Source of the DNA: Lentzea albida
GTDB lineage: Bacteria; Actinomycetota; Actinomycetes; Mycobacteriales; Pseudonocardiaceae
Direction: 5' to 3'
DNA: 64,000 nucleotides
Assembly (NCBI RefSeq): GCF_900111005.1
Contig: NZ_FOFV01000008.1
Span: 248,001 to 312,000, forward strand
Both the position numbers and the translations under genes were made by a program. The notes under the pieces are model-generated. The model was not told the origin of the DNA. It made no database searches and saw only the letters and a program-made list of their open reading frames with translations. Each line of letters starts with the position of its first letter. Within the stretch, counting starts at the first letter, position 1. Below are positions 17,945 to 21,747 of the stretch, in pieces.

Positions 17945-18244
17945 TCAGGCGACCGCGATCTCCACCGCGTGCACGCCGGGACCGAAGGCCGACACGTCGG
18001 CCTGCCCGTTGCCGGAGCGGTGCAGCGCGCGGACGGTCCAGCTGCCCGGCGCGGCGAAGAAGCGGAAGTCGCCCTCGGGCGAGGTGACCACCTCCGCGGT
18101 GAACTCGCCGGTCGAGTCCAGGAGGCGGACGAACGCGCCGCCTACCGGGGTGCCCTCGGAGAGGACCTTGCCCTCGAGGACCGTTTCCGTGGTCGAGACG
18201 TCGATCGAGCCGCCCTGGGCGGGGGCTCCGCAGCCGTTGGTCAT
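17945..18244 (-). CDS. sseC: DUF1416 protein, SseC-like sulfur metabolism partner
   Basis: The 99-residue protein is a DUF1416 member, an all-beta carboxypeptidase-regulatory-like domain. It starts MTNGCGAPAQGG and holds the conserved TVLEGKVLSEGTPVGGAFVRL and the end AVEIAVA. In mycobacteria SseC lies directly downstream of cysA2/cysA3, exactly as here, and is taken to work with the sulfurtransferase. Its molecular role is not established. The ATG shares one base with the cysA stop (TGATG). A strong hairpin ends the operon. Confidence 0.88.
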   Translation of the reverse strand: MTNGCGAPAQGGSIDVSTTETVLEGKVLSEGTPVGGAFVRLLDSTGEFTAEVVTSPEGDFRFFAAPGSWTVRALHRSGNGQADVSAFGPGVHAVEIAVA

Positions 18245-19089
18245 CAGGACTCCTTGCCGGAACCGAGCTCGATCGGCACGCCGATGAGCGAGCCGTATTC
18301 CGTCCACGAACCGTCGTAGTTCTTGACGTCCTCGTGGCCCAGCAGCTCGCGCAGGGCGAACCAGGTGTGCGACGAGCGCTCGCCGATGCGGCAGTACGCG
18401 ATGGTCTTGCGGCTGCCGTCGAAGCCCGCCTCGGCGTAGAGCTCGCGGAGCTCCTCGTCGGACTTGAAGGTGCCGTCCTCGTTGGCCGCCTTGGACCACG
18501 GGACGTTCACGGCCGACGGGATGTGGCCGCCGCGCTGCGCCTGCTCCTGCGGGAGGTGGGCCGGGGCGAGCAACTTGCCGGAGAACTCGTCGGGGGAACG
18601 GACGTCGACGAGGTTCTTGTTGCCGATGGCGTCGACGACCTCGTCGCGGAACGCGCGGATCGAGAGGTCCTGCTCCTGCGCGGTGTAGGAGGTGGCGTCA
18701 CGAACCACCTCTTCCTTGTCCAGCGGACGGCCGTCGAGCTCCCACTTCTTGCGGCCGCCGTCGAGGAGCTTGACGTTCTGGTGGCCGTAGAGCTTGAAGT
18801 ACCAGTACGCGTAGGCCGCGAACCAGTTGTTGTTGCCGCCGTAGAGGATGACGGTGTCGTCGTTCGAGATCCCCTTGGCGGACAGGAGCTTCTCGAAGCC
18901 CTCGCGGTCGACGAAGTCGCGGCGGACCGGGTCCTGGAGGTCGTTCTTCCAGTCGATCTTGACGGCGCCGGGGATGTGCCCGCCGTCGTACGCGGTGGTG
19001 TCCTCGTCGACCTCCGCGAACACGACGCCCGGCGTCTGGAGGTTCTCCTCGGACCAGGCGGCCGAGACCAGCACGTTCTCACGGCTCAT
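18244..19089 (-). CDS. cysA: Thiosulfate sulfurtransferase (rhodanese)
   Basis: This 281-residue tandem rhodanese corresponds to mycobacterial CysA2/CysA3. The catalytic loop is CRIGERS in the C-terminal domain, with the active Cys that takes the sulfane sulfur from thiosulfate and passes it to an acceptor. The N-terminal domain has YDGGHIPGAVKIDW and the C-terminal one RGGHIPSAVNVPWSKA, the usual structural motifs. It is cytoplasmic, with no signal peptide. It sits between a DUF4395 membrane protein and sseC, behind a cysteine-rich leader ORF, so it is probably controlled by sulfur or cysteine supply. Confidence 0.95.
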   Translation of the reverse strand: MSRENVLVSAAWSEENLQTPGVVFAEVDEDTTAYDGGHIPGAVKIDWKNDLQDPVRRDFVDREGFEKLLSAKGISNDDTVILYGGNNNWFAAYAYWYFKLYGHQNVKLLDGGRKKWELDGRPLDKEEVVRDATSYTAQEQDLSIRAFRDEVVDAIGNKNLVDVRSPDEFSGKLLAPAHLPQEQAQRGGHIPSAVNVPWSKAANEDGTFKSDEELRELYAEAGFDGSRKTIAYCRIGERSSHTWFALRELLGHEDVKNYDGSWTEYGSLIGVPIELGSGKES

Positions 19090-19120
19090 GGGAAGTTGCT
19101 CCTGTAGTAGTGCGGTGTCG

Positions 19121-19588
19121 TTATTGCGGTCGAGCGAGTGCAGGCACGTACCTGCGCAGCACGAGGTACATCTCGCACCCGAGGCACAGGCCCAGCGCCG
19201 CGTTCAGCAGGGCCGCCACCAGTGCGAAACCGGTGGCCACCATGCCGAGCGTGGTGAGGCCGGTGGCGTAACCGAGGGTGCCGATCAGTGCGAAGACGAA
19301 GCCGACGCCCTGCGCGAACCGCAGCGGGGCCGCCTCTTCGCGCTCGGTGGTCGGGGTCAGGCGGGGCTGGATCGCGTAGCGGTAGACGTGACCCCACGGG
19401 TTCAGCTTCAGCGAGATGAACGCGCACATCGCGAAGAGCACCGTCTGCGCGGCGAGGAGACGCCACCAGCCGGTGAGCAACACGATCGCGAGGATGACGG
19501 TCGTCATCCAGGCGGAGAAGCGCGGTCCGCGCGGGTCTACAGGGGAGTCTTTGAGCACGACGACCTCCGGGCAAACGGACGAGGGCAT
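19121..19588 (-). CDS. DUF4395 four-helix membrane protein
   Basis: The 155-residue protein is a DUF4395 member. It has a short N-terminus with the conserved DPRGPRFSAW, four hydrophobic segments, the conserved FISLKLNPWGHVYR, and the motif GLCLGCEMY in the last helix, whose two cysteines could be redox-active or carry sulfur. DUF4395 proteins commonly neighbour thioredoxins and rhodaneses, as here, so a membrane step in sulfur or thiol transfer is a reasonable inference. It is the first full-size gene after the leader ORF. Confidence 0.85.
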   Translation of the reverse strand: MPSSVCPEVVVLKDSPVDPRGPRFSAWMTTVILAIVLLTGWWRLLAAQTVLFAMCAFISLKLNPWGHVYRYAIQPRLTPTTEREEAAPLRFAQGVGFVFALIGTLGYATGLTTLGMVATGFALVAALLNAALGLCLGCEMYLVLRRYVPALARPQ

Positions 19589-19630
19589 TCAGTCCGGCAG
19601 AGGTAGCTGATGGGCGTCAAGCAGCCCAGT

Positions 19631-19708
19631 TCAGCCCGTCGTGCGACACAGGCTGCTGCGCACGCGGCACAGGTCAACCGCGCGTCGCTTCGTGAGCAGC
19701 AAGGTCAT
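19631..19708 (-). CDS. 25-aa cysteine-containing leader peptide of the sulfur operon
   Basis: An ATG at 19708 opens a 25-codon ORF: MTLLLTKRRAVDLCRVRSS followed by LCRTTG and a stop at 19631. The core RRxVDLCRV and the repeated Cys-Arg pairs match the short leader peptides I know upstream of actinobacterial sulfur genes. In mycobacteria such ORFs are leaderless and act as cysteine-responsive attenuators. A TACCCT that could be a -10 box lies 8-13 nt before the ATG, which fits a leaderless start. The ORF ends 42 bp before the DUF4395-cysA-sseC genes. Confidence 0.75.
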   Translation of the reverse strand: MTLLLTKRRAVDLCRVRSSLCRTTG

Positions 19709-19787
19709 GGCAGCGAGGGTAGTCCTCAATCCCTCGGTGCGGGAGGTATGTCCACTTGATGGAACAGCGCAGGTTCACCCGACCGGA

Positions 19788-20195
19788 TTAGGGCAAATGC
19801 GGGCGCAGCGCCTCGAGCAAAGAGTCGCGTTTCGGCACGCCGCCGACTCGCAACACCTCGGTGCCGTCGGCCGTCAGGGCGAGCGTCGTGGGGGTGCGCA
19901 TGACGCCCAGCGAGGCGGCGACGTCGGGGAGGTTCGTGATGTCCAGTTCGGCGTGCGTCAGACCGTCCGTGCGGTCGGCGAGGTCGCGCAGGATCACCTT
20001 CGCGTGCCGGCACGGCGCGCAGAACGTGGTGGAGAGCTGCACCAGCGTCACCCCCGGCGCGAGCAGGTCGCGCACGGGAGCGGGCAGGTCGACGGCCGCA
20101 GGACGACGGGAGATGCGGCCCTCGCGGACCTTGAGCAGCACGGCGAGCGCGCCGGCCACGGCCAGCGCGCCCACGAGCGCCCACACACCTGTCAT
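19788..20195 (-). CDS. Membrane-anchored thioredoxin-like protein (ThiX type)
   Basis: The 135-residue protein has one N-terminal transmembrane helix (residues 4-22) and a thioredoxin fold with active site CAPC in STTFCAPCRHAKV, plus the cis-Pro loop RTPTTLAL. It corresponds in position to M. tuberculosis ThiX (Rv0816c), between lmeA and cysA. The ATG overlaps the lmeA stop by 4 nt, so it is coupled to that gene. The leader ORF and sulfur operon begin 80 bp downstream, probably from their own promoter. Confidence 0.87.
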   Translation of the reverse strand: MTGVWALVGALAVAGALAVLLKVREGRISRRPAAVDLPAPVRDLLAPGVTLVQLSTTFCAPCRHAKVILRDLADRTDGLTHAELDITNLPDVAASLGVMRTPTTLALTADGTEVLRVGGVPKRDSLLEALRPHLP

Positions 20196-21013
20196 CGCTG
20201 GCTCAAGGGTACGTTCGCGATCTCGCCGGACAGCTTGAACGAGCCGCTTTCCACCTCGACGGCCGTGGGCGTCGCCCCGAACGGCAGCGTGCCGGGGTCG
20301 ATCTTGATCGCCAGCGCCTGACGCAGCTGCGGGATGATCTGCTTCAGCGACGCGTCGTTGAGCTCGATGTCGTCGATGTTGATCTGGATGGCACCGCTGA
20401 CCAGCGCGATCTGCCCGTACGCGGTGAGCGTGACGACCTTGCCGGCGACGTTGGTCTCGCCGGAGAGCTTGATCGCGGCGGTCGTCTTCGGGGCCGCCGG
20501 GTCGGCCGGGGCCTGCGTGGCGGCGGCGCGGTTGTCCGGCTCGATCGAGAGCTTGTCGAACGGCGTGACCTGGTTCGCGAGCCGGTTCAGGTCCATCGCC
20601 TTGATCCGGACGCTGCCCTTGACCGTGTCGATGGTCGCCTTCGAGACGTTGCCCGCGAGCAGGTCCGAGAGCTCGACGCGGGTGTGCAGCAGGTCCGCCT
20701 CCACGTCGAGGTCGCGCAGGTCGACGCCCTGCTGCTCGTTGCGGATCGGCACGCCGTACGCGCGGATCTCCACGTGCTTGTAGTCGCCGCGCAACGCCTG
20801 CAACGTGAACGGGAACCCGTTGATGCGCACCGACGGGTCCTCGTTGAGCTGCAGCTTCTCCCGCATCCGCTGAGCGATCTGGTACTCGCCCGCGGCCGCC
20901 AGCGCGAAGTCGGCCGCCACCAGCAGCACACCCAGCACGATCACTGTGATGATGAGGAACTTGCCACGGCGTGACTTCTTCTTCCGCGGCCGTGCGGGCG
21001 TCTGCGCAGTCAT
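20192..21013 (-). CDS. lmeA: LmeA-family (DUF2993) phospholipid-binding protein
   Basis: The 273-residue protein has a basic N-terminal tail (ARPRKKKSRRGK), one signal-anchor helix (about residues 19-40) and a DUF2993 domain. The domain opens GEYQIAQRMREKLQL with the conserved VRINGFPFTLQALRGDYKHVE. M. tuberculosis LmeA (Rv0817c, same neighbourhood) binds phosphoinositides in the periplasm and supports mannan elongation of lipomannan. Here the domain is predicted to lie outside the membrane. Both ends are coupled by ATGA overlaps, to the hydrolase upstream and the thioredoxin downstream. Confidence 0.88.
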   Translation of the reverse strand: MTAQTPARPRKKKSRRGKFLIITVIVLGVLLVAADFALAAAGEYQIAQRMREKLQLNEDPSVRINGFPFTLQALRGDYKHVEIRAYGVPIRNEQQGVDLRDLDVEADLLHTRVELSDLLAGNVSKATIDTVKGSVRIKAMDLNRLANQVTPFDKLSIEPDNRAAATQAPADPAAPKTTAAIKLSGETNVAGKVVTLTAYGQIALVSGAIQINIDDIELNDASLKQIIPQLRQALAIKIDPGTLPFGATPTAVEVESGSFKLSGEIANVPLSQR

Positions 21014-21747
21014 CCCTCGTCCTCGACGTTAACGGCGATCCATGCCGCCATCCGGTCTACCAGGTCTGGAGTCGCGGCCGATTCGGCGTGCCGCATGCCG
21101 GGTTCGATCCACAACTCGGCATGTCCGGAGGACGCGCGGTGCAGCGACCTGGCGTGCTCCACCGAGAAATAGTGGTCCAGGTCACCGTGCACGATCAGCA
21201 GTGGGGTCGGCGTGATGCGGCCGACCACCTCCAGCGGACTCTCCGGCGCTTGTACCCAGCTGCCGCCCAGCCGAACCCCGAGCGCCCGCGCCGCGAGCTT
21301 GCCGTGCGGCTGCTCCAGCAACCAGTGCACCCGGCGCATGGGAGCGGTCTCGCGCGACCACCACCGGGCGGGCCCGCTCACGGAGACGACGGCGTCCGGC
21401 CTGGTCTCGCCCAGCGCCGCGTGCCGGAGCACGATCGACGCGCCCATCGAGAACCCGATCGTGGCGACCTTCGAGTAGCCCAGCGAACGAGCCGTCCGCA
21501 CGGCCGCCTCGATGTCGTGGACCTCGTCCGCGCCGACCGTGGAGCGCCCCTCGGAGCGTCCGTGCCCGCGGAAGTCGAACGCGACGACACCGGCCCTGCG
21601 GGCCAGGCGGGCGAGCACGCGGGCGACGTACGGCCGCCTCACGTTGTTCGTGAACCCGTGTCCCACAACGAAAGCGACATCGCTTTCACACTTGTGGTGG
21701 ACGCCGTGCAGGCGCACTCCGTCATGTGACATGGATGTAACAGGCAT
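21010..21747 (-). CDS. Alpha/beta hydrolase
   Basis: This serine hydrolase has the nucleophile elbow GFSMGAS and an oxyanion HGF segment (VVGHGFTNN). The strand FDFRGHGRSEG, the acid near HGDLDHYFS and the catalytic His near GMRHAES complete the set. The fold resembles small carboxylesterases; the substrate is unknown. The start is ambiguous: ATG 21747 (245 aa) gives a compact family-like N-terminus, ATG 21732 is shorter, and ATG 21825 would add 26 residues. None has a strong ribosome-binding site. It heads the hydrolase-lmeA-thioredoxin unit and is divergent from glnR. Confidence 0.82.
   Translation of the reverse strand: MPVTSMSHDGVRLHGVHHKCESDVAFVVGHGFTNNVRRPYVARVLARLARRAGVVAFDFRGHGRSEGRSTVGADEVHDIEAAVRTARSLGYSKVATIGFSMGASIVLRHAALGETRPDAVVSVSGPARWWSRETAPMRRVHWLLEQPHGKLAARALGVRLGGSWVQAPESPLEVVGRITPTPLLIVHGDLDHYFSVEHARSLHRASSGHAELWIEPGMRHAESAATPDLVDRMAAWIAVNVEDEG

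Follow-up and report, generated by a model that had tools for sequence, protein, structure and literature searches.

Upstream of a putative sulfur-transfer operon in the 64,000-nucleotide stretch of Lentzea albida DNA analysed here (hereafter the window) lies a 25-codon open reading frame with two isolated cysteine codons. This arrangement raises the question of whether so short a frame encodes a leader peptide and, if so, how it might sense cysteine and act upon the genes that follow. The elements of the locus, all on the minus strand, are as follows.

19631..19708, minus strand: leader peptide ORF, reading MTLLLTKRRAVDLCRVRSSLCRTTG over 25 codons and then TGA; start codon ATG; NF042934 match of 31.6 bits; core present at 137/143 family loci
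19667..19669, minus strand: first Cys codon, UGC, encoding Cys14 of the peptide at core position 10, where residues vary (Cys in 168/177 distinct leaders)
19646..19648, minus strand: putative sensor codon UGU, encoding Cys21 of the peptide at core position 17 (TGT in 176/177 distinct leaders)
19716..19721, minus strand: TACCCT, candidate -10 element with a 7-nt spacer to the ATG, from which a leaderless start is presumed (TAnnnT in 133/137 loci)
19564..19568, minus strand: Shine-Dalgarno (SD) sequence GGAGG of DUF4395, 5-nt spacer to GTG 19558
19121..19558, minus strand: DUF4395 gene, preferred start GTG 19558, alternative ATG 19588 (PF14340, 149.9 bits from the longer frame; SD)
18244..19089, minus strand: rhodanese/sulfurtransferase, CysA-like (PF00581, two matched stretches)
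17945..18253, minus strand: DUF1416/SseC-like gene (PF07210, 132.6 bits)

Pfam comparison of the three genes that follow places the leader first in a sulfur gene operon; upstream it is flanked by genes for a thioredoxin-fold protein and an LmeA-like protein. Among 95 loci from relatives, CysA is found at 94, SseC at 92 and ThiX at 92. Of the two candidate starts of DUF4395, GTG 19558 is judged likelier than ATG 19588, because GGAGG ends 5 nt ahead of the former; an SD sequence and an in-frame start also lie between leader and DUF4395 in 133/137 relatives. A preliminary description of this DNA had recognized the 25-codon ORF with two Cys codons (19708..19631, minus strand), the TACCCT 8-13 nt upstream of its ATG, and the order of a thioredoxin gene, leader and DUF4395-cysA-sseC operon, and each of these is borne out by the sequence and by Pfam. 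The 42 bp that it gave between the end of the ORF and the sulfur genes hold for ATG 19588 and become 72 nt with the preferred GTG, 30 nt further on. No terminator-like site is found in 19400-19800, which leaves intrinsic-terminator control with no candidate in that interval.

Conservation of the leader was examined across genomes. PF14340 occurs in 139 of 150 same-family genomes, the window's own included; two weak matches (G065:C20, G026:C49) were left out of the family loci. The core LT-[KRQ]-RRAVD-x-C-R-V-x-SSLC precedes DUF4395 at 137 of the 143 loci in these 139 genomes and is carried by 136 of them, and three of the six core-less loci are second copies whose other copy has the core. The preliminary description had staked its reading on conservation in close relatives, and on this point it holds up well. 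The pattern recurs at 74 of 79 named loci, including those of Actinomadura, Planotetraspora, Nocardioides and Aeromicrobium, the closest named DUF4395 records being those of Lentzea (identity up to 99%). Named loci overlap the same-family genomes, and counts are hence given on distinct leaders; leaders without an SD call (4/137 and 7/74) were left out of the pairing tests, giving 200 loci with 177 distinct leaders. In a phylum-wide draw, DUF4395 is present in 48 of 149 genomes, and only three of the 29 loci examined there carry the core pattern (L160-L162), with a variant in L163, so the leader does not accompany DUF4395 in general.

Family models give a similar picture. The window peptide scores 31.6 bits against NF042934, 'putative leader peptide' (curated cut-off 27), its residues 3-21 aligning to positions 1-19 of the 19-position profile; the same model has four matches at E <= 0.1 in the window's own genome, two of them above the cut-off. 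Against NF042933, the Ms5788A family Cys-rich leader peptide, it scores 39 bits (E 4.5e-10), below the curated cut-off of 45. Since NCBIfam already has models for such peptides, annotation need not miss the leader, contrary to the earlier expectation that it would. Pfam gives no match for the leader peptide, and Rfam gives none up to E 1 in 18000-21100, which rules out a known structured RNA in that interval.

The start of the leader is likewise conserved. TAnnnT stands 4-9 nt ahead of the in-frame start codon at 133/137 loci, with a spacer of 7 nt in 124 of them, start codons in relatives having been chosen partly by this motif itself; the background counted for comparison, TAnnnT 6-8 nt before other ATG or GTG triplets of the same loci, is 22/7490. 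No -35 consensus was found in 19400-19800 by a generic sigma-70 scan requiring a -35 as well. The position of TACCCT (19721-19716) suits a leaderless start, and transcription probably begins at the leader ATG, 19708. Farther upstream of the -10, in window 19763-19730 (minus strand), two conserved inverted repeats stand about 20 bp apart: CCA-N5-TGGA at 48/127 distinct loci (1/1268 background windows) and T[CT]CC-N7-GGG at 61/127 (7/1268). A DNA-binding regulator may use these repeats as operators; inspection by eye of 10 paralogous leaders showed none upstream.

Synonymous and replacement changes were counted by parsimony on the DUF4395 tree for the 177 distinct leaders. Four core positions combine many synonymous changes with no replacement (Thr2 28/0, Arg4 35/0, Asp8 31/0, Arg11 12/0), positions 3, 9, 13, 18 and 19 are the most variable, and the DUF4395 gene itself shows 3058 synonymous and 1830 replacement changes at gap-free codons. 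These counts look like selection acting on the translated peptide, beyond what a plain attenuator needs. A chance ORF is ruled out by the core at 137/143 loci, the TAnnnT enrichment over background and the peptide-level selection. The comparisons thus indicate that the window ORF is a real, strongly conserved leader peptide, and the model match, the family-wide core and the selection counts bear out the leader-peptide reading of the preliminary description. Several codons of the family are also nearly fixed in spelling (Arg5 CGC 124/128, Arg11 CGC 125/137, Ser14 AGC 117/131, Ser15 AGC 118/125); these fixed codons at core positions 5, 11 and 14-15, within window 19684-19652, point to a constraint at the RNA or codon level.

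The two cysteine codons differ sharply in their behavior. The second Cys is present in 176/177 distinct leaders, is spelled TGT in all 176 and undergoes zero synonymous changes on the tree, whereas the likewise two-fold Asp8 codon changed synonymously 31 times. TGT also occupies core position 17 in 73 of the 74 core-bearing named loci, the exception, L249, stopping before that position. The first Cys is absent from 9/177 distinct leaders and is spelled TGC in 161 and TGT in 7 of the remaining 168. Across the 200 loci, DUF4395 genes spell Cys as TGC 441 times and as TGT 27 times. The longest Cys run is 1 in 172 distinct leaders and 2 in five. On this comparative evidence the second Cys codon, UGU, behaves like a sensor and the first does not. 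The preliminary description had pointed to a VDLCRV signature and two Cys codons and had likened the peptide to the cysteine-rich leaders of mycobacteria; both codons are indeed present, but only the UGU shows sensor-like behavior, and with a longest Cys run of 1 the window peptide is not cysteine-rich in the way of those leaders.

Three further segments bear on how a ribosome at this UGU might affect the downstream gene.

19637..19644, minus strand: anti-start segment GCACGACG, one base 3' of the UGU; 8 bp, perfect complement of 19562-19555, with covariation
19555..19562, minus strand: its partner CGTCGTGC, which includes the DUF4395 GTG start codon (complementarity, covariation)
19598..19603, minus strand: CCTCTG, which can pair with CGGAGG 19569-19564 in a local hairpin over the SD (inner stem 19596-19592/19580-19576; consensus fold of 22 distinct Lentzea-like leaders)

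Covariation was evaluated by permutation: duplex energies were compared between each post-UGU segment paired to the ribosome-binding site (RBS) at its own locus and the same segment paired to RBSs from other loci. With one locus per 80% DUF4395 cluster (n=51), the energy is -19.63 for own and -17.95 for other pairs (z -3.8, 0/5000). Near loci in 90% clusters (n=16) give z -2.8 (17/5000), and far loci, with <72% identity to the window (n=47), give z -3.2 (3/5000), a set separate from the examples that prompted the pairing idea yet not a blind one, part of the leader sequences having been inspected beforehand. A reversed segment of the same composition is null to weak (z -1.3, 486/5000, at n=51; z -1.7, 254/5000, at n=47). 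Control segments give z +1.0 for the core, +0.7 for SSLC and -0.7 for the spacer; a helix between the S-S-L-C codons and the spacer was rejected on that z of +0.7, which reveals no covariation. The local SD hairpin covaries weakly across clusters (z -1.6, 114/2000). A two-dimensional map in 12-nt windows contains a coherent block at UGU-3..+21 by start-27..+3, the noise outside it reaching z +3.3 among positive cells and -3.0 in a single negative one. Within the near clade (29 distinct pairs, 66 loci) one fixed 8-bp register pairs in 184/232 cells (79%), against 26-60% for other registers, and at one of its pairs A-U (11) is exchanged for G-C (10). In the sister family the post-UGU segment shows no significant covariation (z -0.4; wider segment z -1.9).

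Naive folding of whole leaders was set aside as a test for its weak result: stalling raises the predicted accessibility of the SD by +0.089, compared with +0.053 in shuffles, and at the window's own locus this accessibility stays near zero (0.02 to 0.05). A hairpin inside the core (CGCGCGG/CCGCGUG) was also rejected, its Ala6 changes seeming uncompensated when judged by eye. The covariation nonetheless suggests that the RNA after the sensor can hide the DUF4395 RBS and start codon and, therefore, that the start of DUF4395 would be exposed while a ribosome pauses on the UGU. Base-pairing was rejected as the cause of the frozen UGU: its three bases are paired in only 26, 27 and 18 of the 51 best duplexes, so the codon is not a constant pair. 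Decoding is our preferred, unproven reason for its fixation. One tRNA, with anticodon GCA, reads both Cys codons, and UGU by wobble; a codon read more slowly would, we infer, sharpen a one-codon sensor.

Ten of the 177 distinct leaders (L027, L031, L033, L051, L064, L073, L079, L092, L099 and L113) have another geometry, because their stop reaches or passes the SD; the leader ends 1 nt short of the DUF4395 start codon in eight, 8 nt short of it in L079 and 55 nt past it in L113. In these, the long-range helix may give way to termination-reinitiation coupling or to occlusion.

Taken together, the sequence evidence makes it probable, in our judgment, that the leader is a cysteine-responsive translational attenuator, the counterpart of Ms5788A with a single-codon sensor; what we infer in this model is where transcription starts, that the ribosome stalls, that cysteine elicits the response, which way control runs and that the SD hairpin is released. 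RNA polymerase would start at the ATG, and the leader would be translated by ribosomes loading at the leaderless end. With ample Cys-tRNA, the ribosome would pass the single UGU, terminate four codons later and depart, after which 19644-19637 could pair with the DUF4395 start codon region, 19562-19555; the local hairpin may hold the SD at the same time, such that DUF4395-CysA-SseC would be poorly translated. With scarce Cys-tRNA, the ribosome would halt with UGU in its A site and mask the anti-start segment, and the start codon would be freed. A stalled ribosome covers about 13 nt downstream.

Other mechanisms deserve weighing against this attenuator. Coupled transcription and translation is common, and the leader might control transcription, with ribosome position exposing or hiding a Rho site or terminator between leader and DUF4395. 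A role for Rho has indeed been suggested in mycobacteria, where cys leaders had no terminator (PMC1262725, in the passages available), but here the post-UGU segment covaries with the RBS and start codon themselves, a spacer taken as control stays near background, and the searches for a terminator-like site in 19400-19800 and for Rfam matches came back empty; we regard this reading as unlikely. It is a slimmer prospect still that the leader is an arrest peptide, in which nascent T-x-R-R-x-V-D-x-x-R stalls the ribosome on another signal (redox, sulfide or a metabolite) and Cys is a mere stall site. The four residues that lie 6-15 positions before the UGU, with synonymous and zero replacement changes, speak for it, in that plain attenuators need none, as does the R-x-H/A-V-D-like stretch retained by paralogous leaders, most with a single Cys; yet the downstream genes are sulfur genes, and sister-family leaders at this locus have several Cys codons, which fits codon sensing. 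A small protein acting in trans, such as a thiol or metal binder, would account for amino-acid conservation with two Cys, but the first Cys is missing from nine leaders, CysA follows at 94/95 loci, the second Cys is constant in its codon as well as in its residue, and the RBS covaries, all of which make it highly improbable.

Features of the attenuator and of nascent-chain arrest may be combined, and we put this forward tentatively, as something possible though short of an even chance: T-x-RR-x-VD-x-x-R in the exit tunnel would make one slow, wobble-read UGU decisive, no Cys run would be needed, and the freed element would be the start codon paired to the post-UGU codons.

The proposed translational attenuator has a close relative in the Ms5788A and polycysteine leaderless small ORFs of mycobacteria, with which it shares the site before a DUF4395-cysA2 operon, the LTKRRAVDLCR core, the sulfur genes and, presumably, a leaderless start. 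For Ms5788A, work of Canestrari et al. in 2020 reportedly describes a stalled ribosome that blocks RNA hiding the downstream RBS. Window-type leaders differ in that they lack the polycysteine run, carry a single frozen UGU sensor and score below the NF042933 cut-off. The NF042934 entry (cis_reg_atten), which the window peptide passes, is a generic 19-residue domain and leaves the mechanism unstated. In the available passages of PMC4633059, the mycobacterial leader precedes cysA2/Msmeg_5788, and its position and core match the window leader; translational attenuation is reported for mycobacterial polycysteine leaders in those of PMC9094748, PMC13236596 and PMC9031893. A 2005 study (PMC1262725) predicted Cys leader peptides ahead of cys operons in Mycobacterium and P. 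acnes; as far as the accessible portion goes, they share a short ORF, Cys codons near the stop and no obvious terminator, and differ in having Cys codon runs and a mechanism left open, with Rho suggested. The uORFC-8-2 before cysS in Rhodobacterales likewise has Cys codons in a leader ORF, but these are two in tandem, mostly UGC, with an intrinsic terminator (PMC8632094, in part). Further literature, also available in part, comprises PMC8079986 and PMC7790235. A single fixed UGU in these leaders was not found in the literature searched, in which the main mycobacterial paper is represented by citing passages. The locus and its logic are thus already known from the mycobacterial system; what the comparisons indicate to be new is the single-UGU variant and the comparative RNA evidence on how the start codon is concealed.

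The contrast suggests one actinobacterial sulfur-control device with two designs at one locus, several mixed-spelling Cys codons or one Cys codon of fixed spelling, and codon choice at the sensing codon becomes directly testable as UGU versus UGC with the amino acid unchanged. A sister family of the same order carries the core pattern at 47/73 loci, with longest Cys runs of 3 in 40 leaders, 6 in three, 2 in three and 1 in one; a polycysteine peptide from one such locus scores 55.5 against NF042933, above the cut-off of 45. Cys codons after core position 12 in these leaders are TGT 119 times and TGC 88 times, so that fixed UGU spelling goes with the single sensor, since the multi-Cys leaders mix both codons. 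A universal UGU rule is ruled out by L294 of the sister family, whose one Cys after the core is spelled TGC, and by nine SSAMC-type paralogous Lentzea leaders with TGC at the aligned Cys; the other 22 have TGT, by our own grouping of the DNA of 31 Lentzea-genus leaders among the 48 matches listed.

Lentzea genomes hold further leaders of the same family (L002, L004, L005, L266-L292); in the portion read, most contain one Cys. Nine ORFs after paralogous leaders, picked mechanically, were compared with Pfam; five matched, and the four tried after L004, L005, L269 and L291 gave no match. The link of the paralogous leaders to sulfur is partial: matches after L266 (NMT1), L282 (ABC permease, BPD_transp_1) and L289 (Trans_reg_C and APH) accompany that of L002, an SSAMC-type leader whose next gene belongs to the sulfite/nitrite reductase family (NIR_SIR).
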